Shown here piece after piece: positions 18,152-43,240 of a stretch of 64,000 bases of DNA. This DNA is from Prauserella isguenensis (GTDB lineage Bacteria > Actinomycetota > Actinomycetes > Mycobacteriales > Pseudonocardiaceae). The DNA lies in NCBI RefSeq assembly GCF_014191605.1, contig NZ_JACHWU010000001.1, positions 1,550,001-1,614,000 of the forward strand, in the 5' to 3' direction. Both the position numbers and the translations under genes were made by a program. How positions within the stretch are numbered: the first letter of the stretch is position 1; every line of letters begins with the position of its first letter. Under the pieces are notes generated by a model. It made no database searches, was not told where the DNA came from, and saw nothing but the letters and a program-made list of their open reading frames with translations.

Positions 18152-19399
18152 TCAGTCGCCGCTCGCGTCGTCCCTGCGGGAGAACCCGCGGGCGCCGGCC
18201 GCCAGGGCTGCGCAGGCCGGGGCTGCGAAGCAGATGACGGCGGTGGTGGTGAGGACAGCGCCGGTGCCGAACGCGCTCATGGCAGGGGCGATGAGCGCCA
18301 GCCCGACAGGGGCCAGGCCGTAGGAGAGCAGGAAGTCCAGTGACGACACTCGGGCGAGCTTGTCGGGTGCGACCTCGCGCTGCGTCGCGGTGAACCACGG
18401 GACGTTGAACAGTTCGATCCCGATACCCGCGACCACGTACGCACCGATCACCACCGCTGGGTGCAACGGCATGAGCAGGCTGAGGGGTGCGAAGCCGTAG
18501 CAGGCCAGGCCGCCCAGTGCCGCCCAGCCCTGCGCCCTCGGCCGCCACCGCGAGACGATCACGGCACCGACGAGTGCGCCCGCGGTGTAGGCCGTCAACG
18601 CTCCTGCCAGCACCGCTTCGGTTCCGTACGTATCCCTGCTGACCAGGGGCAACGCCACGTTCGTCGCAGAGTAGCCCGTGGCGATCACAGCTGTGAGCGC
18701 GCCGAGCCCGGCGAGGAACCACGGGTGGCGCCGCGCCTCACGCACACCGTCGGCGAACTCGACGTGCAGAGGTGCGCGGGTGCGCGATGGCTGTGGCTCG
18801 GAGGATCCTCGTGGCGGTGCGAGGGCTGCGGCGAGCCACAGTGCCGAGGTGCCGATCAGTAGGGCCGGTGTGCTGACGACGGTGGCCAGCAAGGCTGTCA
18901 GGCCCGGCGCGACGAGCGTGGTCACGCGGACCGAGAACGTCGTCGCGGCGTTGGCCTGTTGACGTCGTGGCTCGTCGACGACCTCTGCTGTCAACGCCTG
19001 GAAGGCGGGCCGGCACGAGCCCTGTCCTGCGCCGACGATCGCCGCCGCAGTGGCCATGAGCGTGACCGAGCTGCCGAGGCCGGCGGCGATGAGGGGTGTG
19101 GCGACGGCGGCGGCCATCGCGGCCCACAGCACGACGGCGCGACGGGAGTAGCGGTCCGCGAGCAGTCCTCCGACGGGTACCGCCACCACGAAGCCGATGG
19201 TGCGTGCGGCCAACACGATGCCGAGCCCCGCCGCGCTCAGACCGCGGTCGAGCACGGCGAGGCCGAGGATGAACGGCAGCGCCCACGTGGCGATGCCGGA
19301 GGCGGTCGTCCCGCACCACAGTCGGAGGAACCCCGGGTCGAGGAGGACGGAACGCCGGCGCGCGGCGGCGCCGGATGTACTGGGCGATGGAGTGGACAC
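18152..19399 (-). CDS. MFS transporter, putative metallophore exporter
   Basis: Major-facilitator permease of 415 residues with about 12 hydrophobic helices. The 2-3 loop motif GGLLADRYSRRAVV (about 77-90) is present, and the sequence is of the enterobactin-exporter (EntS)/MFS_3 type; WFTATQREVAPDKLARVSSLDF is typical of that group. It is the last gene of the minus-strand operon, 36 bases after the PLP synthase, so the expected role is export of the compound made by the preceding enzymes. That role is inferred from position. The substrate is unknown. Confidence 0.75.
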   Translation of the reverse strand: MSTPSPSTSGAAARRRSVLLDPGFLRLWCGTTASGIATWALPFILGLAVLDRGLSAAGLGIVLAARTIGFVVAVPVGGLLADRYSRRAVVLWAAMAAAVATPLIAAGLGSSVTLMATAAAIVGAGQGSCRPAFQALTAEVVDEPRRQQANAATTFSVRVTTLVAPGLTALLATVVSTPALLIGTSALWLAAALAPPRGSSEPQPSRTRAPLHVEFADGVREARRHPWFLAGLGALTAVIATGYSATNVALPLVSRDTYGTEAVLAGALTAYTAGALVGAVIVSRWRPRAQGWAALGGLACYGFAPLSLLMPLHPAVVIGAYVVAGIGIELFNVPWFTATQREVAPDKLARVSSLDFLLSYGLAPVGLALIAPAMSAFGTGAVLTTTAVICFAAPACAALAAGARGFSRRDDASGD

Positions 19400-19435
19400 G
19401 AGGTGGTGAACTCCCGGGGTCGGCGGGTGCGGCGC

Positions 19436-20452
19436 TCACGCCGCGGCGGACTGTGGTGCGTGCATGCGATTCCATGCCATGCGGCACCACGGCAGGTCGA
19501 GCTCGTCCGTACCGGACACGTCGGTGGGAGCCAACTCGGCCACGTCGACGGCCTCGGCATGGCGCGTGAAGACCGAGTCGACATAGCGGTGTCCGGTATC
19601 GGGCGCGACGAACAGCACCGTGCGCCGGGTGTCGCGGAGGCGTTCCCACCGGGCCGCGAGGTACGCGGCGCCACTCGAGAGGCCGGCGAACGTGGCGTGC
19701 CGCCGCAGCAGGTCCACCGAGCCCGCCAGCGCGGCGGTGAACCCGACCCAGTGGACGACGTCGTAGAGCTCGTGGTCGACGTTGTCGAACGGGATCGAAC
19801 TGCCGATTCCGGCGATGATGATGTCCGGATCGGTGACGTGCTCGCTGCCGAACGTGACGCTGCCGAACGGCTGCACGCCGACGAGTGCCGCGCCGTCGTC
19901 GCCGCGGCGCAGATAGCGCGCGAGCGCACCGGTCGAAGCCCCGGAGCCGACCCCGCCGACGATCGTCAGCGCCGCGGGATCGAACTCGCGGGCGATCCGC
20001 TCGGCGACGGCTCGATAGCCCAGGTAGTGGATGTCGTCGTGGTACTGCCGCATCCAGTGGTAGCGCGGATTCTCCCCGAGGATGCGGTGGATACGTCGCA
20101 CACGCCGATCCTGGTCGAGCTTCAGGTCCGTGGACGGCTCCATCTGTTCCAGTCGTGCTCCGAGTACGGCCAGCTGTGTGCGCACACTTTCGTCGACAGT
20201 GGTGGAGCCGACGATGTGGCATCGCATTCCGTGCCGGTGACACGCCAGCGCGAGGGCGTAGGCGTAGATGCCGCTCGAACTGTCGACGAGGGTGTCGCCG
20301 GGTCGTACCGCTCCGGTGTCGAGCAGATGGCGGACGGCGGCGTCGGCCGAGACCACCTTCATACTCTCAAAGCGCAGGCAGACGAGGTTCTCGTGCAGGC
20401 GGATGAGGTCCGGGCGTCCAATGGCGTCGGCGACGTGGTCGTCCATGGTCAC
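19436..20452 (-). CDS. PLP-dependent cysteine-synthase-family enzyme (SbnA-like)
   Basis: Fold-type II PLP enzyme of 338 residues, cytoplasmic. Features: the putative PLP lysine in FESMKVVSADAAV (about residue 32), the substrate loop VDSSSGIYAYALALA (about 56-70) replacing the SSGNTG of cysteine synthase, and the phosphate cradle VGGVGSGASTGALA (about 166-179). It lacks the PGGS-K-R context of true cysteine synthase, so beta-replacement on a different amino acid (for example an O-phospho amino acid with an amine nucleophile) is more likely. Its start lies inside the 3' end of the preceding kinase gene (86-base overlap). The neighbours suggest a step in small-metallophore synthesis. The product is unknown. 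Confidence 0.72.
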   Translation of the reverse strand: MTMDDHVADAIGRPDLIRLHENLVCLRFESMKVVSADAAVRHLLDTGAVRPGDTLVDSSSGIYAYALALACHRHGMRCHIVGSTTVDESVRTQLAVLGARLEQMEPSTDLKLDQDRRVRRIHRILGENPRYHWMRQYHDDIHYLGYRAVAERIAREFDPAALTIVGGVGSGASTGALARYLRRGDDGAALVGVQPFGSVTFGSEHVTDPDIIIAGIGSSIPFDNVDHELYDVVHWVGFTAALAGSVDLLRRHATFAGLSSGAAYLAARWERLRDTRRTVLFVAPDTGHRYVDSVFTRHAEAVDVAELAPTDVSGTDELDLPWCRMAWNRMHAPQSAAA

Positions 20453-21359
20453 GCTCCCAACTGGTCGTACCGATGCGGAAGGGACTGGTCACGGGGATAC
20501 CGCTGCGTTCGAGGCGCCGGGCGGCGCGGTCGAGCCGGTCGTGGACCTCGGGTGCTGCGGCGTCGAAGACGAGGCCGGCGACGTTGCCGCTGTGGGCGAC
20601 CTGCACCCCGACGGCGCCCTCGCGTTCGGCGACACGCTCGAGTTCGGGGAGCTCCTCCTTCGGCAAGATGCGCTGGTTGTAGCGGGCACTGATCGTGCAG
20701 ACACGCCCGAGCTGTGTGGCATCGGACTCGGCAACGGCGTTCCGCAGCAGGCGGCGCAGGTGTTCGAATGCGTGGATCTCGTCCTCGGGTTGTGCTGCCT
20801 CGTCGAAGGACAGCGTGTCGACGGGTTCGCCGCCGCCGGTGATGCACCCGAGGATGATCACGGCAGGTAGTGCGGCTCCGAGTTCTTCGAGTACCTGGCC
20901 CTCGCGTTGGGCGAAGAGTCGCGGACGTTCGTCCAGCATGACCGGATCACACGCACGTTCGGCCTGCACCGCGAGCGCGGCGATCCGCTCCGGGGGAAGT
21001 GTGACGTCGAAACTCGTCGCCACTGCATGGATGGTGGCGATGGTGTCGCTTGTGGACGATCCCATGCCGATACCCACCGGAATGTCGCCGTGCAGCCGAA
21101 GGTGGCCGCCCGGCGTGGTCCGCGCGTCACCGGAGGTGCAGAACGCGGCGGTCAGCCGCGCGGCGTCGAGTGCTTTCGCACGGTCGCCGGGGGTGACGGT
21201 GAACAAGCCGCGTGGGTCGGGCCGGAACTCCGCATGCGTTCGCCGGTGCGTCACGGGCACCGTCACGAGTGCCCGGCGCCTGCGTCCGTGGGTGTCGAGG
21301 AAGATCCCCTGGACGAGCTCGCCGTGGTGGCTGCATGCCTGTCCGTGACCGACTTTCAT
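20367..21359 (-). CDS. GHMP-family kinase, PduX-like (amino-acid kinase)
   Basis: Small-molecule kinase of 330 residues. It opens with CSHHGELVQGIFLD, resembling the PduX start, and carries the GHMP glycine-rich ATP loop DIPVGIGMGSSTSDTIA (about 93-109); GVQVAHSGNVAGLVFD near residue 260 is the C-terminal GHMP motif. PduX phosphorylates L-threonine for cobamide synthesis; no cobamide genes are here, so another amino acid such as serine is a reasonable guess. ATG overlaps the DUF364 stop by 4 bases. The last about 28 residues are Arg/Pro-rich and are read through the start of the PLP gene in another frame; the true C-terminus may be shorter if a frameshift is present. Confidence 0.7.
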   Translation of the reverse strand: MKVGHGQACSHHGELVQGIFLDTHGRRRRALVTVPVTHRRTHAEFRPDPRGLFTVTPGDRAKALDAARLTAAFCTSGDARTTPGGHLRLHGDIPVGIGMGSSTSDTIATIHAVATSFDVTLPPERIAALAVQAERACDPVMLDERPRLFAQREGQVLEELGAALPAVIILGCITGGGEPVDTLSFDEAAQPEDEIHAFEHLRRLLRNAVAESDATQLGRVCTISARYNQRILPKEELPELERVAEREGAVGVQVAHSGNVAGLVFDAAAPEVHDRLDRAARRLERSGIPVTSPFRIGTTSWERDHGRPRRRRHWTPGPHPPAREPRLPAL

Positions 21360-22153
21360 GCGTACGCCCCCGTGCGGTAGCGGTGCAGGACGGTCGGATC
21401 GGCGCTGAACTGGGAGAAGGGGAACGGCTCGGCCGACAGGGCGGTGACGCCGCGGCCCAGGAACGCCCTGGCCACCGCCGACCCACTCTGCGCGTACACG
21501 GTCAGCGGGATCTCGCGATCGCGACACCGGGCCAGGATCGTGTCGAAACTCCCGTTGCCGAGGGTCATGCCCGTGGCGACCACGGTGTCCGCGACGTCGA
21601 GGACATCGGACACCGAGTCGGTGACGGGGTGTCCCCATTGCGTTTCGCGCAGGTTCAGATCGCACGGCAGGCACGTGCCGCCACGGTCCTCGATCGCGGC
21701 CACGAGCGGGTTCACGACGCCGATCAGTGCGACCTTCGTACCGCGTTCGACGTCGAGAAGTCCGGCGATGGCCGTGTCGCGCGCCTGTGCACGGACCTCC
21801 GGGGTGCCGGACGGCAACGTGACGGTGTCGTCGGCGGCATGGGGCTGTTGGTGACCGAGGTAGGCGTCGAGTGCCGCGATGCGCACAGGGAGCCGCGGGT
21901 CGGTCAACAGCTCGCTGAGCGGCCGGCCCGACATCTCGCCTGCGACGTCCGGGTCGAGTTCACCGCTTTCGAACGCGCACGCACCGAAGGCGCCGCCGAC
22001 CCGCACGAGGACGTACTGGTTGCGGTAGGTGACGCCGCCGCCGGCGAGTCGCGTTCCGTGGTGCAGCCAGAACACGCTGGTGGCCGTGAGCAAAGCCGGG
22101 TCGAGACCGTGACGACCGGCTGCGACGTCGGTGAACAGGTCGTCGACGGTCAT
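21356..22153 (-). CDS. DUF364 protein (putative heavy-metal chelation domain)
   Basis: Protein of 265 residues, cytoplasmic. The N-terminal part (VFWLHHGTRLAGGGVTYRNQ) has an enolase-N-like DUF4213 character; the C-terminal Rossmann-like DUF364 domain has KVALIGVVNPLVAAIEDRG (about 141-159), ADTVVATGMTLGNGSFDTIL (about 188-207) and a final FPFSQFSADPTVLHRY. DUF364 proteins recur beside metal ABC transporters, and the family has been labelled as possibly heavy-metal chelating, with no proven biochemistry. Stop and start overlap both neighbours by 4 bases, so it is tightly coupled to the methyltransferase and kinase genes. Confidence 0.7.
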   Translation of the reverse strand: MTVDDLFTDVAAGRHGLDPALLTATSVFWLHHGTRLAGGGVTYRNQYVLVRVGGAFGACAFESGELDPDVAGEMSGRPLSELLTDPRLPVRIAALDAYLGHQQPHAADDTVTLPSGTPEVRAQARDTAIAGLLDVERGTKVALIGVVNPLVAAIEDRGGTCLPCDLNLRETQWGHPVTDSVSDVLDVADTVVATGMTLGNGSFDTILARCRDREIPLTVYAQSGSAVARAFLGRGVTALSAEPFPFSQFSADPTVLHRYRTGAYA

Positions 22154-22872
22154 GCCACTTCACCTCGCGTCAGCCGGAACACGTAGGTCAGCACGCCGTC
22201 GTTCCAGTCGTGCCGGTGAAACACCTCCGCCTTGAAACCGGTCGTCACGGCATGGCGGATGATGGCGGGCATGTCGGCCGTGTTCGACACGACGACGAAC
22301 ACCTCACCGCCGGGCGCCAGCAGGTCGCGCTGCGCGAGCTGTTCGAAGAACGTGGCCAGCAGCGGCGCGCCGACACAGACGTTGCGGACGACATCGGGGT
22401 CGGTGCTGACGGTCCGACTGACTGCCGGCGGGTTGAACGTCACGACGTCGAGGCGGGTCTCCGACGGCACGCCGTCGAAGACGTTCCCGGCGGCCGCGAC
22501 GAACCGTGTGCCCTCACGCTCACCGACGAGGCGTTCGTAGTTTCGACGGGCCGTGTCGACACTGCTCGCGTGCACGTCGAGGGCGTAGACCTCGCGTGCG
22601 CCGCGCAAGCCGGCGACCGCGGTTTCCACGCCGAGCCCCACGCCCATCGCGGCGTAGGACCGGCCGCGGACGTCGATGATGTCGTCGAGCAGGCGTTCGT
22701 GAATCATGCGGCTGGTCGCGCCGGGCATGAACACTCCGGGCGGCACGTCGAACTCCCATCCGTTCCACGCGTAGGTGCGATGGGTGTGCAGGTCGGCCTT
22801 CGGCTGGTTGAGGGCGATGATCCGCTCAGCAGGGAGCGGAGGGGGAAGCTGTTCGATCAAGGTCGAGGTCAC
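22150..22872 (-). CDS. Class I SAM-dependent methyltransferase
   Basis: Cytoplasmic methyltransferase of 240 residues. Motif I reads YAAMGVGLGVETAVAGLRGA (about 91-110), followed by the acidic ribose-binding ALDVH. The catalytic-type motif FNPPAVS (about 167) resembles the NPPY/DPPY loop of N-methyltransferases, so an amino or imidazole nitrogen acceptor is plausible. GTG start with GGAGGAG about 7 bases upstream. It begins 55 bases after the binding-protein gene; a strong ribosome site here suggests that synthesis of the enzyme block is set independently within one transcript. The acceptor is unknown. Confidence 0.72.
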   Translation of the reverse strand: MTSTLIEQLPPPLPAERIIALNQPKADLHTHRTYAWNGWEFDVPPGVFMPGATSRMIHERLLDDIIDVRGRSYAAMGVGLGVETAVAGLRGAREVYALDVHASSVDTARRNYERLVGEREGTRFVAAAGNVFDGVPSETRLDVVTFNPPAVSRTVSTDPDVVRNVCVGAPLLATFFEQLAQRDLLAPGGEVFVVVSNTADMPAIIRHAVTTGFKAEVFHRHDWNDGVLTYVFRLTRGEVA

Positions 22873-22927
22873 GGGCGGGCTCCTCCGTATGGACGATCAT
22901 CGATGTGCGGACGGTGTTGCGGGTGGC

Positions 22928-23916
22928 TCAGCGTCCGATCCCGCGGAGGTACTCGGCGAGCTTCTCGGCGGCGTCGATGTTTCTCGGCCCGCTGACGGCT
23001 TCGCCGTAGTCGAGGACGTGGAAGCGGTTGTTGCGCACCGCGGGTGTGGAGGCGAGTGGCGGATGCGACTTGAGGAACGCGATCTTCTCCTCGACAGGCT
23101 GGTCGCCGTAGTCGACGACGGTGATGACCTCCGGGTTGGCCTTGACCACCGGTTCCCAGCCGACCGTCGTCCACCGCTGTTTCAGGTCGTTGAAGATGTT
23201 GCTGCCGCCGGCGAGGGAGACGATCGCGTTCGGCGAGGCCTGATTCCCCGAGGTGAACGGTTGGTCGGTCCCCGAGTCGTAGACGAACACCCGGGCCGGG
23301 TCGCCCTCCGGCTGGTTGCTGCGCAGCTGCTCCGCGCGTCGCTGGATGTCGGACACGAGCTGCTGTGCGCGGTCCTCGACGTGGAAGATCCGCCCGATCT
23401 GACGCAGATCCGTGTAGAGCGCCTCCATCGGCGGCACGGTGACAGGATTCTCGCCGTAGTTGAAGCAGCTCTCGGTGAACTGGTACGAGCGGATGCCGAC
23501 CTCGTCGAGCCGTTGCGGGGTGATGCCGCGCTCCTCGCTGAACCCGGATCCCCACCCGGCGAGCACCCAGTCGGCCTCGGCGTCGACGACCGTCTCGAAG
23601 CCCAGCACGTCGGTCGAGAGCGTCTCCACCGAACGGTAGTCCTCGCGGTACGGCGAGCGTTCCACGGCAGGGTTCGCGGTGCTGGGCATGACGATTCCGC
23701 GCATACGGTCGGCGAGGCCGAGGGCGAACATCTTCTCCGTGGCGCTCATGTCGTAGGCGACGGCGTTTTGTGGCGGCGGGTAGGTGATCCGTTTGCCGCA
23801 GTTCTCGACCGTCACGGGCCGGGGGCCGTCCTGGGCGTTCCGTTGGACGTCGGCTCCGCAGGCTGTGGCGAGCAGACAGGCGGCCAGCAGGACAGGAACG
23901 GACTTGGTCGTCGCTG

Positions 23917-23920
<4 letters not shown>
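22928..23920 (-). CDS. ABC transporter substrate-binding lipoprotein (FepB/BtuF type)
   Basis: Lipid-anchored extracytoplasmic binding protein of 330 residues. The signal peptide ends in a lipobox (LLATAC, Cys about 21). The mature part is the long-helix class III fold of metal-chelate binders: VTVENCGKRITYPPPQNAVAYD, an N lobe with SATEKMFALGLADRM, then VDAEADWVLAGWGSGF and a C lobe with WEPVVKANPEVITVVDYGD. It should bind a metal-metallophore complex or cobalamin-like ligand. Overlaps the ATPase gene by 4 bases. Unlike zinc-specific ZnuA, no His-rich loop is seen, so free zinc is not the likely ligand. Confidence 0.82.
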
Positions 23921-24714
<794 letters not shown>

Positions 24715-24715
24715 G

Positions 24716-25822
24716 TCAGCGTCCCCCGAACAGGTAGCTGCGGCGGCGGAGCAGGACGACGAAGACCGGAACGCCGATCAACGCGGTGATGACCCCGAGC
24801 GGCAGCTCCCGAGGGGCGAACATCGTCCGAGACGCGAGGTCGACCCATACCAGGAAGACAGCGCCTGCGAGCGGTGCGATCGTCAGCACACGCCGATGAC
24901 TCGCACCGGTGACGATGCGGACGAGGTGCGGCATGACGAGGCCGACGAAGCCCACCGCGCCGCTCACCGCGACGAGCGCTCCGGTGACGACGGCCGTGAG
25001 CAGGAAGAGCATGCGGCGCAGCCGCGTGGTGTCCAGGCCGAGGCCTGCGGCGGACTCGTCACCCATGGCGAGGACGTCGAGCGAGGGCCCGCTCCTGAGC
25101 AGCGTCACGACGGCGACCACGACGGCTGCCGCGGCGACGGGCAACGATTGCCATGTCGCGCTGCCGAGACTGCCCAGCATCCAGAACATCACCGACCGGG
25201 CCGTTTCCCCGAAGGGGGCGAAGAACACGATGACGCTCATCAGCGCCTGGAAGCCGTAGGCGAGGGCCACGCCGGTGAGCACGAGGCGCAGCGGGGTCAG
25301 GCCGGCCCTGGTGTGCGCGGCTGCGTAGACCAGGGCCGAGGCGAGCAGTGCACCGAGGAACGCCGCGGTCGAGAGTGCGTAGACACCCAGGCCGGCGAAC
25401 AGGCCGAACGACACCACGGCGCTCGCGCCCACGGACGCGCCCGAGGACACGCCGAGGATGAACGGGTCGGCGAGCGGGTTGCGCACCATCGCCTGTACCG
25501 CGACGCCGATGACGCTGAGGCCTGCCCCGACGACCGCGGCCAGCACCACCCGGGGAGCGCGGACCTCCCAGACGATCGAGTACTGGGTGACGTCTTCGGC
25601 GCCGATCGTGCCTCCGGTCAGTGCTGCACCGAGATAGCGCAGCGTGTCCGAAAGCGGTATGACCGCGGAGCCCAGTGAGATGCCGGCGATCACCGAGCCG
25701 AGCAGGGCCACCGTGAGGACCGCCACGGCGGTGGCCGTACCCGACCGGGGTGTGCCCGGTCGGGACGCGGGCGGACGTGTCGTTGCGGCAGGCCCGGTCG
25801 GCGTTCTCGTCGTGGTCGTCAC
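24716..25822 (-). CDS. FecCD-family ABC permease for metal-chelate uptake
   Basis: Inner-membrane permease of 368 residues with about ten helices. After a 30-residue Thr/Pro-rich cytoplasmic leader come family motifs: RAPRVVLAAVVGAGLSVIGV (about 95-114), RNPLADPFILGVSSGASVGA (about 119-138) and GFVGLVMPHLVRIVTGASHR (about 290-309) with the ATPase-coupling Gly. It is the first gene of the operon (GTG start, GGAAGGA upstream), about 110 bases below a Zur-type palindrome. A single permease gene implies a homodimer. Confidence 0.87.
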   Translation of the reverse strand: MTTTTRTPTGPAATTRPPASRPGTPRSGTATAVAVLTVALLGSVIAGISLGSAVIPLSDTLRYLGAALTGGTIGAEDVTQYSIVWEVRAPRVVLAAVVGAGLSVIGVAVQAMVRNPLADPFILGVSSGASVGASAVVSFGLFAGLGVYALSTAAFLGALLASALVYAAAHTRAGLTPLRLVLTGVALAYGFQALMSVIVFFAPFGETARSVMFWMLGSLGSATWQSLPVAAAAVVVAVVTLLRSGPSLDVLAMGDESAAGLGLDTTRLRRMLFLLTAVVTGALVAVSGAVGFVGLVMPHLVRIVTGASHRRVLTIAPLAGAVFLVWVDLASRTMFAPRELPLGVITALIGVPVFVVLLRRRSYLFGGR

Positions 25823-25930
25823 GTCCGATCCTTCCGGGTCACGGTCGTTGGCCTCCCGTCGCCGACTGAACGTCCGACGCCGACAGCCGCTGAGGACTCT
25901 GGGGCGTCGATGGGCCGCCGACAGTACAAA

Positions 25931-25945
25931 TGAAAATCATTTTCG
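25931..25945 (-). promoter_or_regulatory. Zur-type operator ahead of the metallophore operon
   Basis: TGAAAATCATTTTCG, a 7-1-7 palindrome with only the last base off symmetry. Read on the minus strand it is CGAAAATGATTTTCA, 14 of 15 to the TGAAAATGATTTTCA box known for Zur in Streptomyces. It lies in an AT-rich island inside GC-rich DNA, 109 bases upstream of the permease start codon. Proteobacterial Fur sites look alike, but actinomycete iron control uses the different TTAGGTTAG-type box (found here at 34693), which favours Zur. Confidence 0.72.
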
Positions 25946-26174: not shown

Positions 26175-26247
26175 GGGGCTGTAGCGCAGTTGGTAGCGCG
26201 TCTCGTTCGCATCGAGAAGGTCAGGGGTTCGATTCCCCTCAGCTCCA
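26175..26247 (+). tRNA. tRNA-Ala (anticodon CGC)
   Basis: Acceptor GGGGCTG pairs with CAGCTCC; the D arm GCGC/GCGC, the anticodon stem TCTCG/CGAGA with loop TTCGCAT (anticodon CGC, codon GCG), and the T arm AGGGG-TTCGATT-CCCCT are all present. 73 bases; no CCA is encoded. A decayed region follows directly, as is common beside tRNA integration sites. Confidence 0.93.
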
Positions 26248-26254
26248 CATCAGA

Positions 26255-34692: not shown

Positions 34693-34711
34693 TTAAGTAA
34701 GGCTAGCCTTT
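34693..34711 (+). promoter_or_regulatory. DmdR/IdeR-type iron box ahead of sbnA
   Basis: TTAAGTAAGGCTAGCCTTT matches 14 of 19 bases of the actinobacterial iron box TTAGGTTAGGCTAACCTAA and centres on the perfect 12-base palindrome AAGGCTAGCCTT (34699-34710). It lies in an AT-rich pocket 58 bases upstream of the sbnA start codon. It predicts iron-dependent repression of the whole siderophore operon. Confidence 0.75.
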
Positions 34712-34768
34712 GCTAACGTGCCAGGGCATCGACACCGCCCGTTCCGGCCGCTCTAGCAAGGGAGAAAC

Positions 34769-35776
34769 GTGGCTACTGCCGCCGACACTGTTGCCGAGCC
34801 CGACGAGTCGATTGCCGAGTCCGTCTTCGACTGCGTCGGCAACACCCCGGTCGTCGCTCTGAACCGGCTGTTCTCGCAGCCGGACGTCGACGTCCTCGCG
34901 AAGCTGGAGTTGATGAATCCGGGTGGGAGCATGAAGGACCGCTCGGCGCGCTACATCGTCGACTCCGGTCTGCACGACGGATCGATCACCCCGGGCTGCC
35001 GACTGGTCGAGAGCAGTTCCGGCAACTTCGGCATCGCGCTCGCCATGGCCGCCCGGGTACGGGGCCTGCGGTTCACGTGCGTACTCGATCCCAAGACGAC
35101 AACCGCCAACCTCGCGTTGCTACGCCGGCTCGGCACCGATGTGGAGATGGTCGACGACGTCGACGAAGCGGGAGGCTACCTGCACTCGCGCATCCGGAGG
35201 GTGAACGAACTGCTCGCCGCGGACCCCGACGCCGTGTGGATCAACCAGTACGCCAACGACCGGAACTGGCAGGCGCACTATCACGGCACGGGCGCGGAAC
35301 TGGCCGAGCAGCTCGTCCGTCCGCCGGACTACCTTTTCGCCGCGGTCAGCACGACCGGCAGCATCCTCGGGTGCTCGCGCAGGCTCCGCGAGGATTTCCC
35401 TGACATGCGGGTGATCGCGGTCGACTCGGTCGGCTCCGTGATCTTCGGGGGTGCTCCCGGCCCACGGGACATCCCGGGGATCGGGTCCAGCCGTGTGCCC
35501 GAGCTGTGCAGGCCGGACGAGATCGACGAGGTGGTCTACGTCGACGACGTCACCGCGGCGACCGGATGCAGGCAACTCCTTGCCACGGAAGGGGTTTTCG
35601 CGGGCGGATCCACGGGCGCGGTGGTCGCCGCGATCCAGCGGATGCTGCCACGGCTCGACCATCCCAGCCGGATCGTCGCGGTGTTCCCCGACCGCGGTGA
35701 CCGGTACCTCGACCTCGTCTACGACGACAACTGGCTCACCGGCGCCCGCCGGCGCAGTACGGAGCCCCCAGCGTGA
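34769..35776 (+). CDS. sbnA: N-(2-amino-2-carboxyethyl)-L-glutamate synthase
   Basis: First enzyme of L-2,3-diaminopropionate (Dap) formation: in S. aureus it joins O-phospho-L-serine and L-glutamate by PLP-dependent beta-replacement. 335 residues, cytoplasmic. PLP lysine in MNPGGSMKDRSARYIV (about 54), substrate loop ESSSGNFGIALAMA (about 80-93), VSTTGSILGCSRRL phosphate cradle (about 196-209). GTG start with GGGAG 5 bases upstream. First gene of an eight-gene operon behind an iron box; sbnB follows after 11 bases. Clearly distinct from the second PLP enzyme at 19436. Confidence 0.9.
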   Translation: MATAADTVAEPDESIAESVFDCVGNTPVVALNRLFSQPDVDVLAKLELMNPGGSMKDRSARYIVDSGLHDGSITPGCRLVESSSGNFGIALAMAARVRGLRFTCVLDPKTTTANLALLRRLGTDVEMVDDVDEAGGYLHSRIRRVNELLAADPDAVWINQYANDRNWQAHYHGTGAELAEQLVRPPDYLFAAVSTTGSILGCSRRLREDFPDMRVIAVDSVGSVIFGGAPGPRDIPGIGSSRVPELCRPDEIDEVVYVDDVTAATGCRQLLATEGVFAGGSTGAVVAAIQRMLPRLDHPSRIVAVFPDRGDRYLDLVYDDNWLTGARRRSTEPPA

Positions 35777-35787
35777 AGGAGGAACCG

Positions 35788-36804
35788 GTGGCAGACGACG
35801 CCGTCCGGATGCTGTACCTGTCCCGATCCGATGTCGCCGCCGTCGGCGGCGACCACTCCGACCTGTACGTCGACGCCCTGCACGAAGGGCTCGTCGCCCA
35901 TGCGAAGGGCGACACCGTGCAGCCGCTCAAGCCGTACCTGCGCACCGACGGCCCCGACGGGCACATCGCCGATCGCATCATCGCGATGCCCGCACACGTC
36001 GGCGATCCCGGCCTCTCCGGGATCAAGTGGATCGGCAGCAAGCACGACAACCCCACCCGCGCCGGGCGAGAGCGTGCCAGCGCACTGATCGTGCTCAACG
36101 ACCCGGCGACGAAGTACCCGGTCGCCGTCATGGAGGGCAGCCTCATCAGTGCCTGGCGGACCGCGGGCGTCACCTGCCTGGCCGCACGGCATCTCGCGGT
36201 GAGCGGGTTCACCGACGTCGCACTGGTCGGCTGCGGGCTCATCGGCAGCACGCAGGTCACGGCACTACTGCAGCAGTTCGACCACATCTCGACCGTGCAC
36301 CTCTACGACGTCGACGCGGAGGCGGCCAGCGGGCTGGCCGACCGGATCACACGGGAGAACCCGAGCGTCAAGGCGGTCGTGGCCGACACCGCCGAGGACG
36401 CGGTCGGCCAGGGCGATCTCGTGGTGCCGTGCACGGTCACCGACCAGCCCTACATCACGTTCTCCTGGCTCAAACGGGGAGCACTGCTGTGCAATGTGTC
36501 CATCATGGACGTCCACAAGGACGTGTTCCTGGGAGCGGACAAGGTTGTCGTGGACGACTGGGAGCAGAGCAACCGCGAGAAGAAGATCATCAACCGGCTG
36601 GTGCTCGAGGGCTCGTTCTCGCGCGAGCAGTTGCACGCGGAACTCGGCGAGATACTCGCGGGCGACCGCCAGGGCAGGGACAACGACGACGAGATCATCG
36701 TGCTGAACCCGATGGGCATGGCCGTCGAGGACATCGCTTGTGCCGGCGAGGTCTACCGGAGAGCCACCGAGTCGGGCACCGGCACGTGGCTCGACCTGCA
36801 CTGA
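35788..36804 (+). CDS. sbnB: N-(1-amino-1-carboxy-2-ethyl)-glutamate dehydrogenase
   Basis: Ornithine-cyclodeaminase-fold enzyme of 338 residues. In S. aureus SbnB oxidatively splits the SbnA product with NAD to L-Dap and 2-oxoglutarate, both of which are later built into staphyloferrin B. The NAD-binding motif is VALVGCGLIGSTQVTALL (about 147-164); the N-terminal half has the family HEGLVAHAKGDTVQPLKPYL and KWIGSKHDNP segments. GTG 35788 is preferred over GTG 35773 because AAGGAGG lies 5 bases before it. Confidence 0.9.
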   Translation: MADDAVRMLYLSRSDVAAVGGDHSDLYVDALHEGLVAHAKGDTVQPLKPYLRTDGPDGHIADRIIAMPAHVGDPGLSGIKWIGSKHDNPTRAGRERASALIVLNDPATKYPVAVMEGSLISAWRTAGVTCLAARHLAVSGFTDVALVGCGLIGSTQVTALLQQFDHISTVHLYDVDAEAASGLADRITRENPSVKAVVADTAEDAVGQGDLVVPCTVTDQPYITFSWLKRGALLCNVSIMDVHKDVFLGADKVVVDDWEQSNREKKIINRLVLEGSFSREQLHAELGEILAGDRQGRDNDDEIIVLNPMGMAVEDIACAGEVYRRATESGTGTWLDLH

Positions 36805-36807
36805 TCG

Positions 36808-38508
36808 GTGATGCCGGTGATCTCGGAGGTCGACGGCGGGGCGGCCGAGCTGGTGTTGCGTGATCTCGTGGACGCTCTCATCCAGGAGAACGTGGCGGGT
36901 TTCGGCGAGGCCGATGCGCGTGCCGACGGAACCCTGGCCGTCCCGGTCGCGGACGGCGAGGTGACCGTCGCCGTCCGCGACGGCGGCGGTCTGCAGCGGT
37001 ATCGCCTCGACCGGGGGCCCGCCCGCCTCAACGGCACGCCCGTGAGCCCGCACGAGCTGGTGCGGCTGGTCGCCCCGGACGCGGCCCAGGTCGGCGGCGT
37101 GTCCGGGGACGTCGCGACCGCGGTCGAGCACGCGGCGACGGTACTCGCGGCGCGGCGTGACGGTGCGAACGTCGATCTGCTGGCGGGTGAACGCATGGCC
37201 GCGACGCGGAACCGCCCGTTCCATCCCACGGCGCGCGCCGCGGCGGGGTGGACGGCTGCCGAGCTCGCGCAGTACGGCACTGTGCGGGAGGCCGCGCTCG
37301 GCCTCGACTGGGTCGCGGTGAGCACCCGGTTCGTCCGCGCGGGCGATGACCCACGCTCGGCGGACCTCGCTGCGCTGGTTCTGCAGGGCGACGAGTTGAC
37401 CCGCCTGCAGGAGACGGTCGCGCTCGCCGGGGTCGACACCGCGCAGTACGCGATCCTGCCGGTGCACCCCTGGCAGTACGAGAACGTGCTCGGCCGCGAG
37501 TTCGCCGGCGAACTCGCGGCCGGTGCGATCGTGCCCGTGGCGCGCGACCTGGGGCGCTTCCACCCGACGGCCTCCCTGCGCACCTTGACGACGTCGCCCC
37601 CGGGTCTTCGTCACCTCAAGCTCCCGCTGGGTGTGGCCACCCTGGGCGCAGCACGGCTGCTTCCGCCCCGGTATCTCGCCAACGGCGACGCGGCCCAGCG
37701 CACCATGCGCGCCGCCGTCGACAGGGACCCGGTACTCACGGCCCGCGTACGGTTGTGCGACGAGGGCGCCTGGTGCGGCTGGTCCGATGGCGACGAGTTC
37801 GCCGACCGGCCGGGGCAGCTCGCCGCGCAGGTACGCACGTACCCGGAGCTGGACGGCTCCCTCGCCGTGCCGATGGCGGCACTCGCCGCGCACGAGTGGC
37901 TCACGCTGGCACCGGTCCTCGTGCCGGACGGCGACCCGGTGCGGTTCTTCGCTCGGCTCGCGCGCGGGTTCTGCGAGCTCGGAGTGGGTTTCCTGCGCCA
38001 CGGCGTGCTTCCCGAGCTGCACGGGCAGAACGTGGTGGTCGCCTTCGACGGCGCGGAGGTGCCCGGGTTCGTCCTGCGGGACCACGACACGCTGAGGTAC
38101 GTGCCGGAACGGATGGCCGCGGCGGGGCTGGCCGAACCGGCCTACGCCATCAAACCCGGTGCGCGGCAGTCGCTGCGGCTCGACACCGCGGAGCAGCTGA
38201 TCGGCTACTTCCAGACGCTCGGACTCCAGGTGAACCTCTACGGCATCGTCGACGCATTGTGCCGCCACTTCTCGCTCGACGAGCGTGCACTGTGGACACA
38301 GCTGCGGGAGGAGATCGTCGCGTGCCTCGACCGGATGGACTTGCCGGACCGGTTCGGTGACACGCTCGCCCACTGCCTGCTCCGTGCCCCCACATGGCCG
38401 AGCCGCACGGTACTCGGCCCACTGCTGGAGCGAGGGTCGTCGAGCGGGGTGTCCATGCCGGCCGGCACCGGCGCGGTGCCGAACCCGCTGGCCGGGGTGC
38501 GGGAATGA
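36808..38508 (+). CDS. sbnC: IucA/IucC NIS synthetase, SbnC position
   Basis: ATP-dependent NRPS-independent siderophore synthetase of about 566 residues. Family motifs: FHPTARAAAGW (about 139-149), LPVHPWQYENV (about 217-227), PTASLRTLTT (about 253-262), ELHGQNVVVAF (about 403-413) and LRDHDTLRYV. The HPxxKS lysine seen in the other two synthetases is replaced by Ala-Arg here. In S. aureus SbnC performs the last condensation, adding 2-oxoglutarate; assigning that step rests on collinearity with sbnABCDEFGH. Start GTG 36808 or ATG 36811; no strong ribosome site, so translation probably couples to sbnB 3 bases upstream. Confidence 0.85.
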   Translation: MMPVISEVDGGAAELVLRDLVDALIQENVAGFGEADARADGTLAVPVADGEVTVAVRDGGGLQRYRLDRGPARLNGTPVSPHELVRLVAPDAAQVGGVSGDVATAVEHAATVLAARRDGANVDLLAGERMAATRNRPFHPTARAAAGWTAAELAQYGTVREAALGLDWVAVSTRFVRAGDDPRSADLAALVLQGDELTRLQETVALAGVDTAQYAILPVHPWQYENVLGREFAGELAAGAIVPVARDLGRFHPTASLRTLTTSPPGLRHLKLPLGVATLGAARLLPPRYLANGDAAQRTMRAAVDRDPVLTARVRLCDEGAWCGWSDGDEFADRPGQLAAQVRTYPELDGSLAVPMAALAAHEWLTLAPVLVPDGDPVRFFARLARGFCELGVGFLRHGVLPELHGQNVVVAFDGAEVPGFVLRDHDTLRYVPERMAAAGLAEPAYAIKPGARQSLRLDTAEQLIGYFQTLGLQVNLYGIVDALCRHFSLDERALWTQLREEIVACLDRMDLPDRFGDTLAHCLLRAPTWPSRTVLGPLLERGSSSGVSMPAGTGAVPNPLAGVRE

Positions 38509-38518
38509 CGGTGCAGTG

Positions 38519-39835
38519 ATGACGCAGGCGAAACGAATGTTCGCGGTGCTCTGGCTCGGGCAGTTCGCGGCGACGGCAGGACTGACCGTCGTCGTTCCGC
38601 TGTTGCCGTTCTACCTGGCCGACCTCGGTACGCCATCCGGGGACATCGCACTGTGGACCGGGATCTCGCTGGCTGCCCCCGCGGTGACGCAGATGCTCAC
38701 CGGTCCGCTGTGGGGAGCGGTGGGCGATCGCTACGGGCGCAAGGCCATGGTGGTGCGGGCGCACGCGGGCCTCGCGATCTCACTGGTGCTGATGGCCATG
38801 GCCACCACGCCCGCTGCCTTCGTCGCGTTCCGCCTGTTGCAGGGCGCGTGCGGCGGCGTGGTGAGCGCGACCGCCGCCTTCGCCGGAACGCTGGCCACCG
38901 GGCACCGGCGGGGCCGCGCTCTCGGCGGCCTGTTCGGCGCGACCGCGGCGGGTGCTCTACTGGGCCCGTTGGCGGGCGGCGTGCTGGCCGGTACGTGGGG
39001 ATTCGGGCCGATCTTCGTGACCGTCGCGGCGCTACTCGTGTGCTCGAGTGTGGCCGCCGCGTGGCTGCTCATCGAACCCGAGCCGACACCCGAGCCGACA
39101 CCCGAGAGCGACCCCGAGCGGGAGTCCGGCGCCGGATACACGGCCACGGGCTCGCAGGGCGGCGCCTCGTTGCGCCCGGCCCCGTTGCGCGCGGCCCCGT
39201 TGCGCGAGGCCGCCGGGATCCTCGTTGGCCGCGCCGACACGCGCAACGTGCTGCTGGCGGGGCTGGCAGGGCAGGCCGCGATCTATGCCCTCGTGGTCGT
39301 GTTCGCCCCGCAGGTGCAGCGCATCACCGGCTCCATGGCCGACGCCGCGGTGTGGGTCGGCATGCTGCAAGCGACGACCTGGGCGGCCTCCTGGGCGGGA
39401 GGTCCGTGGTGGGGCCGCTACAACGACCGCGCCTCCGCCCAGCGGGGGTTCGCGATCGCCGCCGCGTGCTGTGCGATCGCGACCGCCCTCCAGGTCGTGG
39501 TGACCTCGGTGGAGCTGTTGATCCCATTGCGTTTGGTGCAGGGGTTCTGCTTCGCCGCCTTCCTGCAGTCGGTGCTGCACGTGGCGAGTGGGCGAGTGCG
39601 GCAGCGGCTTTCCGGCACGGCGTTCGGCTTCTCCACCGGCGTACTCGATCTCGGTCAGGTCGTCGGACCGCTGTTCGGGGCGGCCATCGCGGTCACGCTC
39701 CCGCCGGTGGGCGCGTTCGGCGTCATCGGTGTCGTACTGGGCATCGCCGCCCTGCTGGCGGTGCGCAGTGCCGTGCAGCAGGGCGGCCACGATCCGACCC
39801 CCGTCGCCCCCGAACCGAGGAGTGCACATGTCTGA
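38519..39835 (+). CDS. sbnD: MFS exporter, SbnD position
   Basis: Twelve-helix major-facilitator transporter of 438 residues, predicted to export the siderophore. N-terminal half: LTVVVPLLPFYLADLG, GPLWGAVGDRYGRKAMVV (motif A, about 63-80), RLLQGACGG. The central cytoplasmic loop is unusually long and repetitive (EPTPEPTPES, then PLRAAPLREA). C-terminal half: AASWAGGPWWGRYNDRASAQ, RLVQGFCFAAFLQSV. It starts 10 bases after sbnC and overlaps sbnE by 8 bases. Confidence 0.83.
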   Translation: MTQAKRMFAVLWLGQFAATAGLTVVVPLLPFYLADLGTPSGDIALWTGISLAAPAVTQMLTGPLWGAVGDRYGRKAMVVRAHAGLAISLVLMAMATTPAAFVAFRLLQGACGGVVSATAAFAGTLATGHRRGRALGGLFGATAAGALLGPLAGGVLAGTWGFGPIFVTVAALLVCSSVAAAWLLIEPEPTPEPTPESDPERESGAGYTATGSQGGASLRPAPLRAAPLREAAGILVGRADTRNVLLAGLAGQAAIYALVVVFAPQVQRITGSMADAAVWVGMLQATTWAASWAGGPWWGRYNDRASAQRGFAIAAACCAIATALQVVVTSVELLIPLRLVQGFCFAAFLQSVLHVASGRVRQRLSGTAFGFSTGVLDLGQVVGPLFGAAIAVTLPPVGAFGVIGVVLGIAALLAVRSAVQQGGHDPTPVAPEPRSAHV

Positions 39836-41513
39836 TGCCTGCGCGCAGGCGGCGACCCGGCAGCGACTGGTCAACGCCTTCCTCCGTGAGCTCGGCCACG
39901 AGGTGGACGGGCCGGTGGTGCGCGTACCACTGCGGTCGATCGACGACACGCTCACGATCGAGCTCGCGCACGTCTCGCCGTTCGGCCACCACGTGCCCAC
40001 CCCGGCGATAGGCCTCGACGGTCATCCCGGCGTGCTCGGCCACGATCAGCTCGTCGACATCCTGCTCGACGAGCTGGTGGCCCGGTACGGTGGCGCGGAG
40101 AACCGGGACGAGCTGGCACGGCAGATCGCCAACAGCACCGGGCACATCGCACGGTTCCTCGCCCGCGAGGAACCGGCCGGTGCGCGCGACGCGCGAGAAC
40201 GCACGGCCGGGGACGGCCACGCCGAAGATCCCGGCGCGGGAGATCCAGGCGCCGGACGCGCCGGTTCCGGAGACTCCCGCTCACCAGGACTCCGCGCCCG
40301 GGAATTCACTCGGCGCGCGGAGCAGGCGCTGCTACGCGGGCATCCGTTCCATCCGACCCCGAAAAGCACGGAAGGCTTCGACGACCAGGACCTGCTCCGC
40401 TACGCGCCCGAGCTGGGCGGCGAGTTCCGGCTGCACTACTTCGCGGTCGATCCCGCGGTCGCGTGCTCGGACCACGTCGTCCCGGCCCGGGTGTTGCCGT
40501 CCGGAGTGGACGGACCTGACGGCCGACTGCTACTGCCGGCCCACCCGTGGCAGGCCGACTACCTCGTCAAACAGGCCGGTATGCAACGCCTGCTCGACCG
40601 CGGTGCCGTAGCGGCGTTGGGACCGCTCGGGCCGACGGTGTATCCGACGTCGTCGGTGCGGACGGTGTGCGATCCCGACTCGACCGTCGTGTGGAAACTG
40701 CCGCTGCACGTGCGGATCACGAACTTCGTGCGGAACAACCCTGCCGAGCACGTTCGCAGGGCGGCCGACGCCGGACGGCTGATCGCCGGACTGCGACACC
40801 GGTGGCCGGCGGAACTCGGCGTGCTCATCGAGACCGGGTATCGCATGTTGGAACCGGACGTCGCGGGTGAACTCGCGGCCGAGACCGCTGTGCTGTTCAG
40901 GGAGAATCCGTTCCCCGGAACGGAGTGGGCACCCAGGGTGGTTGCCGGGCTGCTGGAGCCGGGACGCGACGGGCAGGAGCCTGTGTTGCCGGCCCTGGTG
41001 CGGGAGTCGGGAGGCGACCCCGCCGCGTGGCTCCGCCAGTACGCGTCGATCTCGTTGCGACCGCTGCTGCACGCGTTCACCGTCGACGGGGTGAGCTTCG
41101 AGGCGCACGTCCAGAACTCGCTGGTGCACACCGACCACGGCTGGCCGACTCGCTTCTGGGTGCGAGACATGGAAGGCACCAGCGCGAGCGCGGACCGGGC
41201 CGACGTGGCGCCCGGCTCGCCGCTGCGCTACAGCGACGACGAAGCATGGCTCCGGCTGCGCTACCACCTTGTGACCAACCACTTCGGACATCTCGTCCAC
41301 GTGCTGGGCATGCACACGGGTGTGGGGGAGGAGGAGCTCTGGGCGCAGCTGGCCGACTTCCTGCGCGATGACTGTCCCGGCCGTTACGCGGCCGATCTGC
41401 TGACCTCGCCGACTTTGCCGGCGAAGGCGAATCTGGTGAGTCGATTCCTCGAACGTGGGGAACGGCCGCTCTACGTCGAGGTGGGAAACCCGTTGCACGA
41501 GGTGAGGACGTGA
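39828..41513 (+). CDS. sbnE: IucA/IucC NIS synthetase, SbnE position
   Basis: NIS synthetase of 561 residues, predicted to couple citrate with Dap. Motifs: HPFHPTPKSTEGF (about 176-188, with the conserved Lys-Ser), LPAHPWQADYLVK (about 237-249), YPTSSVRTVCD (about 275-285), KLPLHVRITNFVR, HVQNSLVHTDHGWPTRF (about 428-444) and VRDMEGTS. A Gly/Ala/Asp-rich, probably disordered insert of about 35 residues precedes the first motif. ATG 39828 has GAGGAG 5 bases upstream and lies inside the sbnD 3' end. The stop overlaps the sbnF start by 4 bases. Confidence 0.86.
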   Translation: MSDACAQAATRQRLVNAFLRELGHEVDGPVVRVPLRSIDDTLTIELAHVSPFGHHVPTPAIGLDGHPGVLGHDQLVDILLDELVARYGGAENRDELARQIANSTGHIARFLAREEPAGARDARERTAGDGHAEDPGAGDPGAGRAGSGDSRSPGLRAREFTRRAEQALLRGHPFHPTPKSTEGFDDQDLLRYAPELGGEFRLHYFAVDPAVACSDHVVPARVLPSGVDGPDGRLLLPAHPWQADYLVKQAGMQRLLDRGAVAALGPLGPTVYPTSSVRTVCDPDSTVVWKLPLHVRITNFVRNNPAEHVRRAADAGRLIAGLRHRWPAELGVLIETGYRMLEPDVAGELAAETAVLFRENPFPGTEWAPRVVAGLLEPGRDGQEPVLPALVRESGGDPAAWLRQYASISLRPLLHAFTVDGVSFEAHVQNSLVHTDHGWPTRFWVRDMEGTSASADRADVAPGSPLRYSDDEAWLRLRYHLVTNHFGHLVHVLGMHTGVGEEELWAQLADFLRDDCPGRYAADLLTSPTLPAKANLVSRFLERGERPLYVEVGNPLHEVRT

Positions 41514-43240
41514 CCGTGGAGTTCGTCGAGCGCGCATTGACGGGGCCGGGCTTCGGCACCGTCCGGCGCAGGGTGCTGCGCCAGCTGCTGGAATCACTGA
41601 TCTACGAGCAGGCGATCGAGGTCGAGGAGATCGGGCCCCGCCGCTACCGGGTGGCCGGCGATGAGGTGGCGTACGAGTTCACCGCGTTCCGCAGACACGG
41701 CTTCGCCAGGGTGGGCCTGGGGCGCGAGCCCGTGCTGCGCATCGCCGCTGCCACCGAGGAGGCCGAGTCGGCACTGCGATTCCTGCACGAGACACGTGAC
41801 GCCGTCAAGGCGGATCCCGATTGCCTGGAGCGGTTCGCCCGCGAGCTGGCGCGCACCGAGTTCAACGACGCGCTGGCGCAGTTGGCCCGTGTCGAGCGTG
41901 GTGACGTGCTCGCCGAGTCCGGTTACGACCGGCTCGAGTGCGCCGTCACCGACGGCCACCGGTATCACCCGACCTACAAGTCCCGCATGGGTTTCGACAG
42001 CGAGGACAACCTGGCGTTCGGGCCGGAGTTCGCGCCTGGGGTGCGCCCGCTGTGGCTGGCGGCCCGACGGGGAATCGCCGAGGTGTCGAGCGTGGCCGAC
42101 GTGGCCGAGTCGGCGTACCTGCGGGCTCAGCTCGGCGAGACCTACGACGAGTTCGTGCGGCGCGCCGACCCGGCGGAGTACACCTACCTTCCGGTGCACC
42201 CGTGGCAGTGGCGCGAAGTGGTCTCGGGTGCTTTCGCCGAGCAGCTCGCGTGCGGCGACATCGTGGTGCTCGGCGACGATCCCGACGAGTTCCTGCCGCA
42301 GCAGTCGATCCGCACGCTGTCGTGCGACGGCCGCCCTTACCTCAAGCTGGCACTGTCCATCGTCAACACCTCGACGCGCCGGGAACTCGCGCCGCACACC
42401 GTGGCCAACGCACCGCGGATCTCCGGGTGGCTGCGCGAGGTGGTCGACGGCGACCCGTTCCTGCGTGAGGAGTGCCGGCTCATCCTGCTCGGCGAGGTGA
42501 TGGGGACGGCCGTCAGCACCGAGACCGCATCCGGCGACACCGAGGGCACGCTGTCGTGCATCTGGCGGGAGAACCTGCACGATCAGCTCGAGGCGGGCGA
42601 GCAGGCCGTGCCGTTCAACGGGCTGACCGCCTGCGAATCGGACGGCACTCCGTTGATCGATCGGTGGGTCCGGCGGCTCGGCGTGGCCGAGTGGCTCCGG
42701 CAGGTCGTGGACGTCAGCGTCCTGCCGGTGATCCATCTGCTGTGCAGGCACGGGATCGCGGTGGAATCACATGCGCAGAACATGGTGCTGGTGCATGCCG
42801 GCGGGGTGCCCACTCGGGTGGCACTCAAGGACTTCCACGACGGCGTGCGGTTCTCCCGCGCAGAACTGGCCGACCCGCGGCGGTGCCCGGAGCTGCGCGC
42901 GACCCCCGAGCACCACGGCAATCGCAACTCGTTCGTCGAGACCGACGACCTAGGCCTGGTCGCCGACTTCGTGCTCGACGCGTTCTTCTTCATCAACATC
43001 GGCGAGCTCGGTATCTTCCTCGCCGACGCCTACGCGTTCGACGAGCGGGAGTTCTGGGCGATCGTGCGCGAGCGTATCGGCGCCTACCGGCGACGTTTCC
43101 CCGAACTGGCGGAGCGCTTCGCGACCTTCGACGTGACCAAACCCCGCATCGACGTCGAGAAACTGACGAGCCGCAGGCTGCTTCCCGACACCGAGTTGCG
43201 GTTGCAGACCGTGCCGAACCCCCTGGCCGAGGAAGGCTGA
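41510..43240 (+). CDS. sbnF: IucA/IucC NIS synthetase, SbnF position
   Basis: NIS synthetase of 576 residues and the most canonical of the three. Motifs: HRYHPTYKSRMGFDS (about 151-165), LPVHPWQWREVV (about 227-238), PQQSIRTLSCDGRPYLKLA (about 263-281), HAQNMVLVHAGGVPTRVALK (about 422-441) and DFHDGVRF. In S. aureus SbnF condenses a second Dap with the decarboxylated citryl intermediate. GTG start inside the end of sbnE; the TGATG junction with sbnG indicates coupled translation. Confidence 0.87.
   Translation: MTVEFVERALTGPGFGTVRRRVLRQLLESLIYEQAIEVEEIGPRRYRVAGDEVAYEFTAFRRHGFARVGLGREPVLRIAAATEEAESALRFLHETRDAVKADPDCLERFARELARTEFNDALAQLARVERGDVLAESGYDRLECAVTDGHRYHPTYKSRMGFDSEDNLAFGPEFAPGVRPLWLAARRGIAEVSSVADVAESAYLRAQLGETYDEFVRRADPAEYTYLPVHPWQWREVVSGAFAEQLACGDIVVLGDDPDEFLPQQSIRTLSCDGRPYLKLALSIVNTSTRRELAPHTVANAPRISGWLREVVDGDPFLREECRLILLGEVMGTAVSTETASGDTEGTLSCIWRENLHDQLEAGEQAVPFNGLTACESDGTPLIDRWVRRLGVAEWLRQVVDVSVLPVIHLLCRHGIAVESHAQNMVLVHAGGVPTRVALKDFHDGVRFSRAELADPRRCPELRATPEHHGNRNSFVETDDLGLVADFVLDAFFFINIGELGIFLADAYAFDEREFWAIVRERIGAYRRRFPELAERFATFDVTKPRIDVEKLTSRRLLPDTELRLQTVPNPLAEEG

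Follow-up and report, generated by a model that had tools for sequence, protein, structure and literature searches.

A putative Zur-controlled zincophore operon with a PduX-family kinase, an SbnA-like enzyme and a DUF364 protein in Prauserella isguenensis

The locus and its upstream box

The stretch analysed here, called the window throughout, comprises 64,000 nucleotides of the Prauserella isguenensis genome (NZ_JACHWU010000001.1, positions 1,550,001 to 1,614,000). Between positions 18152 and 25945 it holds eight minus-strand genes behind a box resembling the binding site of the zinc regulator Zur. This operon probably serves a small zinc carrier, or zincophore, made without a non-ribosomal peptide synthetase (NRPS) or an NRPS-independent siderophore (NIS) synthetase, and would then represent a new enzyme set within the known principle of Zur-controlled small-molecule zinc acquisition. 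Its features, in order of transcription, are as follows.

25931-25945, no strand: candidate Zur box TGAAAATCATTTTCG, 108 bases ahead of the first gene
24716-25822, minus: FecCD-type importer permease (PF01032, E 6.4e-86)
23917-24714, minus: importer ATPase (PF00005, E 6.2e-33)
22928-23920, minus: substrate-binding lipoprotein (PF01497, E 1.3e-25)
22150-22872, minus: S-adenosylmethionine (SAM) methyltransferase, MTS/HemK-like with an NPP motif, accessory (PF05175, E 6.6e-8)
21356-22153, minus: DUF364 enzyme (matches PF04016 above its cut-off and in fold)
20367-21359, minus: GHMP kinase of the PduX (L-threonine kinase) family (PF00288, E 1.4e-12; hhalign)
19436-20446, minus: pyridoxal phosphate (PLP) enzyme of CysK/SbnA fold with its own signature (Lys30, DSSSGIY; PF00291, E 1e-31)
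18152-19399, minus: major facilitator superfamily (MFS) exporter (PF07690, E 1.9e-34)

An earlier note on this DNA, made from its letters alone, had described these eight genes (18152-25822) and the box, and all were found where it had placed them. Its statement that no NRPS or NIS synthetase takes part also agrees with the Pfam assignments, which place none among the eight genes. The tight packing it described holds for the 4-base overlaps at three junctions (ATPase/lipoprotein, methyltransferase/DUF364 and DUF364/kinase) and for the single base between permease and ATPase; the remaining gaps are 55 bases between lipoprotein and methyltransferase and 36 bases between PLP enzyme and exporter. 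The end of the kinase gene had to be corrected: because its frame extends to 20367, its last 80 bases lie within the PLP gene. Related loci keep this overlap, with a median of 80 bases across 76 junctions, 73 of which overlap. The permease gene starts with GTG at 25822, preceded by GGAAGGA. The exporter is weakly matched to the enterobactin exporter EntS (E 1.3e-8), and a tRNA-Ala (CGC) gene lies just upstream of the operon (26175-26248, plus strand).

The box differs from the pattern TGAAAATSATTTTCA by one end base. The Zur motif of Streptomyces coelicolor, derived by chromatin immunoprecipitation (ChIP), is given as tGaNNatSatNNtCa, a 7-1-7 palindrome (PMC5472717), and the window's box again departs from it by a single mismatch at an end base. 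Scanning the window at up to three mismatches returned only two matches, which are the site and its own reverse, against a mean of 0.05 in shuffled sequence. Across the 4.95-Mb genome, TGAAAATSATTTTCA finds 19 sites at up to three mismatches, compared with 2 when the pattern is reversed; at up to two mismatches it finds 5. These five best boxes stand ahead of the operon, of a ribosomal protein L28 gene, of a gene for a CobW-domain protein (two boxes) and of a divergent pair encoding an ABC-3 permease and an ABC ATPase. The L28, CobW and ABC-3/ATPase genes are usual Zur targets; the classes named in a review of actinobacterial Zur are zinc importers, COG0523 proteins and ribosomal proteins (PMC6103462). 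The genome encodes three FUR-family proteins, which are the candidates for Zur itself.

Conservation of the gene set and of the box

Related loci were collected in two ways. Searching named genomes with the PLP protein yielded 171 related loci, the best 80 of which were used, and 20 further stretches were taken from matches in 390 family genomes, picked to span identity levels. Together with the window these give 101 neighbourhoods. A locus is called type A when it holds DUF364, the PduX-like kinase and the PLP enzyme together, and 77 of the 101 neighbourhoods are of this type. The co-occurrence that the earlier note proposed to look for is thereby seen for the kinase, PLP enzyme and DUF364, with the methyltransferase as an optional member. 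The latter was counted by tblastn, because some type A loci are cut at contig ends or were missed by the gene caller: among 80 loci with DUF364 and kinase matches, 33 have a methyltransferase match and 47 have none, a few of these 47 lying on contigs that end nearby.

The relatives come mainly from Streptomyces, with others in Nocardiopsis, Actinopolyspora, Amycolatopsis, Saccharomonospora, Prauserella and further genera. In the 76 type A loci besides the window, an MFS gene is in view in 70 and an importer binding protein in 69, which supports, by comparison, the module for making, exporting and importing a metallophore that had been proposed. Gene order, strand and importer vary from locus to locus while the core remains together. 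The type A importers fall into two sets, one near that of the window and the other about 30% identical to it in the binding protein. Clustering of neighbouring genes revealed no other widely recurrent gene, the next largest clusters occurring in 11 and 9 loci. A gene for a TauD-like dioxygenase accompanies some type A loci (L020, L040, L050, L051, L055, L069, L072, L073 and L079; family checked in L051, the others assigned by clustering) and could provide a tailoring step.

The remaining 24 neighbourhoods comprise 8 with DUF364 and no called kinase, 8 of a type B and 8 others; some of them are type A loci ended by a contig or missed by the gene caller (for example L077 and L075, both with a box). 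Type B loci (L127-L130, L133, L134, L140 and L142) combine a methyltransferase, a PLP enzyme 57-61% identical to that of the operon and an ATP-grasp amino-acid ligase; all except L134 also have a FecCD importer. In L135-L137, PLP relatives of 48-50% identity adjoin three different ATP-grasp ligases and an MFS gene, which suggests a peptide-like product; the families were checked in L136 and assigned by clustering in the other two loci. Two plasmids carry further type A sets. In one from Tsukamurella (L191), which lacks the methyltransferase, a Zur-like box (3 mismatches) at 4095 stands about 100 bases ahead of the importer permease; one from Streptomyces (L187) has the full set, methyltransferase included, with such a box (2 mismatches) at 7299 directly ahead of the methyltransferase gene. 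In a class sample of 394 genomes, DUF364 is matched at E 1e-40 in 29: 20 at 64% identity or more, the window's own genome included, and 9 at 40-42%.

Boxes were counted in the 72 type A loci whose operon start could be seen; the other 5 of the 77 were left out. At up to three mismatches the box precedes 57 of the 72, compared with 8 of 389 starts of flanking non-core genes and none of 72 shuffled sequences. Allowing four mismatches raises these figures to 67/72, 13/389 and 1/72. With the published motif at up to one mismatch the counts are 27/72, 6/389 and 1/72. The mirrored pattern occurs in 0 of 72 loci. Rotating the box five ways gave 25, 9, 1, 27 and 47 of 72 loci at up to three mismatches, to be compared with 57 for the true box; these controls were dropped as unsound because a rotated palindrome has long stretches in common with the box, and flanking starts and shuffles were used instead. 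The genome-wide scan and the conservation of the box in relatives back the claim of Zur control that the earlier note had made, and this comparison makes it highly probable that Zur governs a metallophore-type module.

Enzyme families and a proposed pathway

By sequence comparison, the kinase is a member of the PduX (L-threonine kinase) family, because it shows both profile homology and common motifs. A profile of 30 kinase relatives aligned to an annotated L-threonine kinase adjoining cobD with an hhalign E-value of 6e-19 (probability 99), which bears out the PduX-like GHMP kinase of the earlier note, and to a homologue adjoining cbiB in a cobalamin cluster with an E-value of 5.7e-17. GELxQG, an SST loop and AHSG are common to the kinase and the L-threonine kinase, and looser forms occur in the cobalamin-cluster homologue. 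Structure did not point to one kinase substrate, the AlphaFold2 model (pLDDT, the predicted local distance difference test, 83) matching mevalonate kinases, IspE, homoserine kinase and ForT alike.

The PLP enzyme encoded next to the kinase is CysK/SbnA-like, as had been claimed. Against the SbnA model TIGR03945 it scores 135 bits, under the cut-off of 350, and is on this evidence an SbnA relative and not SbnA. Alignment identifies Lys30 as the PLP lysine; it is the same in all of 27 aligned sequences and at least 98% conserved in 101. The loop SSGIY, likewise invariant in the 27, characterizes the operon's clade; it reads SSGNF in a true SbnA elsewhere in the window and TSGNT in the enzyme of a presumed ethylenediamine-disuccinate (EDDS; aes) operon discussed below. 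Five more distant kinase-linked relatives, four from Proteobacteria and one from Streptomyces, have SSGTF or TSGTF, and the segment ahead of the PLP lysine is shortened both in these and in the operon's clade.

The true SbnA belongs to a staphyloferrin-B-like NIS cluster on the plus strand (34769-45278), 9 kb from the operon. Its SbnA (428 bits) and SbnB (379 bits) both exceed their cut-offs, its SbnC-like and SbnF-like synthetases fall below theirs, and an aldolase and a decarboxylase complete it. A site at 34693-34716 ahead of the cluster resembles the box of an iron regulator (IdeR/DmdR). With this iron cluster behind an iron-type box in the same window, the bacterium seems to have an iron siderophore pathway alongside a zinc-controlled system.

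Kinase and PLP genes also stand in tandem outside type A loci. On plasmids of Sulfuriferula (L190), Azospirillum (L195) and Streptomyces (L196, inside an NRPS cluster) the pair lies beside ATP-grasp and argininosuccinate lyase (argH) genes, the kinases being 35-47% and the PLP enzymes 27-33% identical to those of the operon. These three modules probably encode diaminobutyrate-type routes, in which the kinase would act, aspartate would replace the phosphate and removal of fumarate would yield a 2,3-diamino acid. The diaminobutyrate of pacidamycin is reported to derive from threonine and ammonia (PMC10714638). In contrast to the modules, the operon has no argH or ATP-grasp gene and adds DUF364, an importer and the Zur box. 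Kinase-PLP gene pairs with other neighbours lie on plasmids of Mesorhizobium (L188), Agrobacterium (L189) and Paraburkholderia (L192), and more such records exist.

The DUF364 protein passes the cut-off of PF04016, and its fold comes from a confident model that matches solved relatives. Matches of its second domain to fold-type I PLP enzymes were read as a common alpha/beta arrangement only. A DUF364 structure was published in 2010, and the account describes it as having no known function (PMC2954201). In the operon, DUF364 is likely a biosynthetic enzyme. The methyltransferase had no informative relative among solved structures. A second operon type, present in nine genomes (L199-L207), combines an ATP-grasp protein, DUF364, an SbnA-like PLP enzyme, an epimerase, an MFS protein, a methyltransferase and a NikA-type importer, and a Zur-like box is found in 7 of the 9 loci.

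From these families we infer the substrates, the order of steps, the role of DUF364, the product, its metal and the response to zinc as follows. When zinc is plentiful, Zur would repress the operon, and zinc starvation would allow its expression. The PduX-family kinase would phosphorylate a beta-hydroxy amino acid, most likely threonine and otherwise serine, and the PLP enzyme would exchange the phosphate for the amino group of another amino acid, with aspartate as the best guess, giving an N-linked diamino polycarboxylate. Since the operon has neither an SbnB-like nor an argininosuccinate-lyase-like enzyme, the adduct is expected to remain uncut; it would stay whole or pass to DUF364 for further coupling or trimming. 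Where present, the methyltransferase would N-methylate the product. The earlier note had made N-methylation a regular step; the 47 of 80 loci with no methyltransferase match speak against its being required. The MFS protein would export the resulting small aminocarboxylate zincophore, and the FecCD permease, ATPase and lipoprotein would return its zinc complex. This scheme of phosphorylation and replacement is plausible, and we lean slightly towards it.

A broader idea is held more tentatively, and we favour it somewhat less than its absence. DUF364 may be the defining biosynthetic enzyme of a Zur-controlled zincophore class that is invisible to cluster finders based on NRPS, NIS or opine genes. 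Its partners would be two PLP clades and two importer types (FecCD with the PduX-like kinase, NikA-type with an ATP-grasp ligase and epimerase), and its task would be a second coupling or the completion of what the PLP enzyme makes. Its step could possibly even be a SAM-derived transfer, because a methyltransferase-like Rossmann domain has been described for the DUF364 family.

Alternative readings and known systems

Several results weigh against a Zur-controlled zincophore operon. For product, binding and expression the case rests on sequence. The box is absent from 15 of the 72 type A loci at up to three mismatches and from 5 at up to four. At up to two mismatches the published motif matches 64 of the 72 loci (shuffles, 1/72) and also 46 of 389 flanking starts, so that one weak box alone proves little. 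The boxes comprise 29 distinct sequences, the commonest accounting for 16 of the 57; the loci are therefore not independent, and related ones are phylogenetically linked. Simple scans of the operon for sigma-70-type promoter hexamers and for a terminator found none. The PLP enzyme is matched at E 1e-30 in 2 of 7 genomes of the genus, the window's own included, and its presence is therefore patchy. In structure the kinase comes closest to mevalonate kinases and IspE, and fold and family leave the substrates of the kinase and the PLP enzyme unfixed. Finally, the type B loci with their close PLP relative have no kinase, no DUF364 and no Zur-like box (0 of 7 scanned, at up to four mismatches), and the PLP clade is therefore not zinc-specific.

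This last point feeds the strongest alternative, that the operon is zinc-regulated and its product is not a zinc carrier: it could, for instance, chelate another metal such as nickel, cobalt or copper, or be a bioactive diamino acid produced when zinc is scarce, the importer then serving a different ligand. The same PLP clade occurs in the box-less type B loci and beside the three ATP-grasp ligases, and type A loci have two importer sets with binding proteins of only about 30% identity. On the other side, each of two differently built operons combines a Zur-like box with an exporter of its own and an importer of FecCD or NikA type, and actinobacterial opine zincophore clusters are reported to use importers of the FecCD and the oligopeptide type (PMC7438024). 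We regard this alternative as possible and unlikely, with zinc acquisition preferred. Cobalamin salvage, in which the kinase would supply threonine phosphate for the side arm of the corrinoid, is the least probable reading. It draws on the PduX family of the kinase, but the PLP enzyme has the CysK fold, the eight genes include neither CobD nor CbiB, and no role in that pathway is known for a Zur box or for DUF364. The earlier note had named this reading as one that would overturn its own. The context of the cobalamin-linked homologues was therefore looked for: two such kinase relatives sit beside or near cobD, one of them with cbiB and cobD, and this setting is missing in the operon.

The operon might also be a version of the EDDS (aes) operon or belong to a staphyloferrin/diaminopropionate type of route. 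EDDS synthesis is described as unlike NRPS and NIS routes (PMC4993170), and Zur control and an SbnA-like PLP enzyme are features common to the aes operon and the operon studied here. Below the SbnA cut-off, which the enzyme of the iron cluster passes, the operon's PLP enzyme nevertheless argues against the diaminopropionate route. For comparison with aes, one genome (G104) was taken to be that of Amycolatopsis japonica, and one of its operons (L183) is presumed to be aes. The best Zur-like site of this genome (2 mismatches) leads that operon, which encodes an SbnB-like enzyme, a LysA-like decarboxylase, an SbnA-like PLP enzyme and a MATE exporter. Only the PLP enzyme is in common, at 25-29% identity, and identity with aes was rejected, the presumed aes operon lacking the kinase, DUF364 and FecCD. 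Either route is thus very improbable, though slightly less so than cobalamin salvage. The same genome carries a separate type B locus with a 61% identical PLP relative, a FecCD importer, another methyltransferase and an ATP-grasp ligase.

A search of open-licence papers found none on this gene set and none pairing DUF364 with a metallophore. If the zincophore reading is true, a zincophore pathway has been overlooked across several actinomycete genera because NRPS, NIS and opine genes are all absent from it. DUF364 would gain an assayable biochemical role, threonine-kinase homologues a new use outside cobalamin synthesis, and the enzymology of biodegradable, EDDS-like chelators would be extended.

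Among known systems, the staphylopine-type opine zincophores resemble the operon in their make-export-import logic, their zinc control and their FecCD or oligopeptide-type importers (PMC7438024). An opine zincophore is unlikely here: a nicotianamine-synthase-like gene (PF03059) has no match in the window's genome, the control being matched in Methanosarcina acetivorans, and opine dehydrogenase (PF10100) has none either, although that search gave no match in the control genomes. The SbnA/SbnB diaminopropionate route of staphyloferrin B uses a PLP enzyme of the same fold, whereas the operon has no SbnB and no NIS synthetase and misses the SbnA cut-off. Closest in logic is the EDDS (aes) operon, which is likewise Zur-controlled, uses no NRPS or NIS synthetase, relies on an SbnA/CysK-like PLP enzyme and leads to the kind of small aminocarboxylate expected here. 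The presumed aes operon has an SbnB/OCD-like enzyme, a decarboxylase and a MATE exporter that are absent from the eight genes, in place of which the operon has a PduX-like kinase, DUF364, an MFS exporter, a FecCD importer and an optional methyltransferase.

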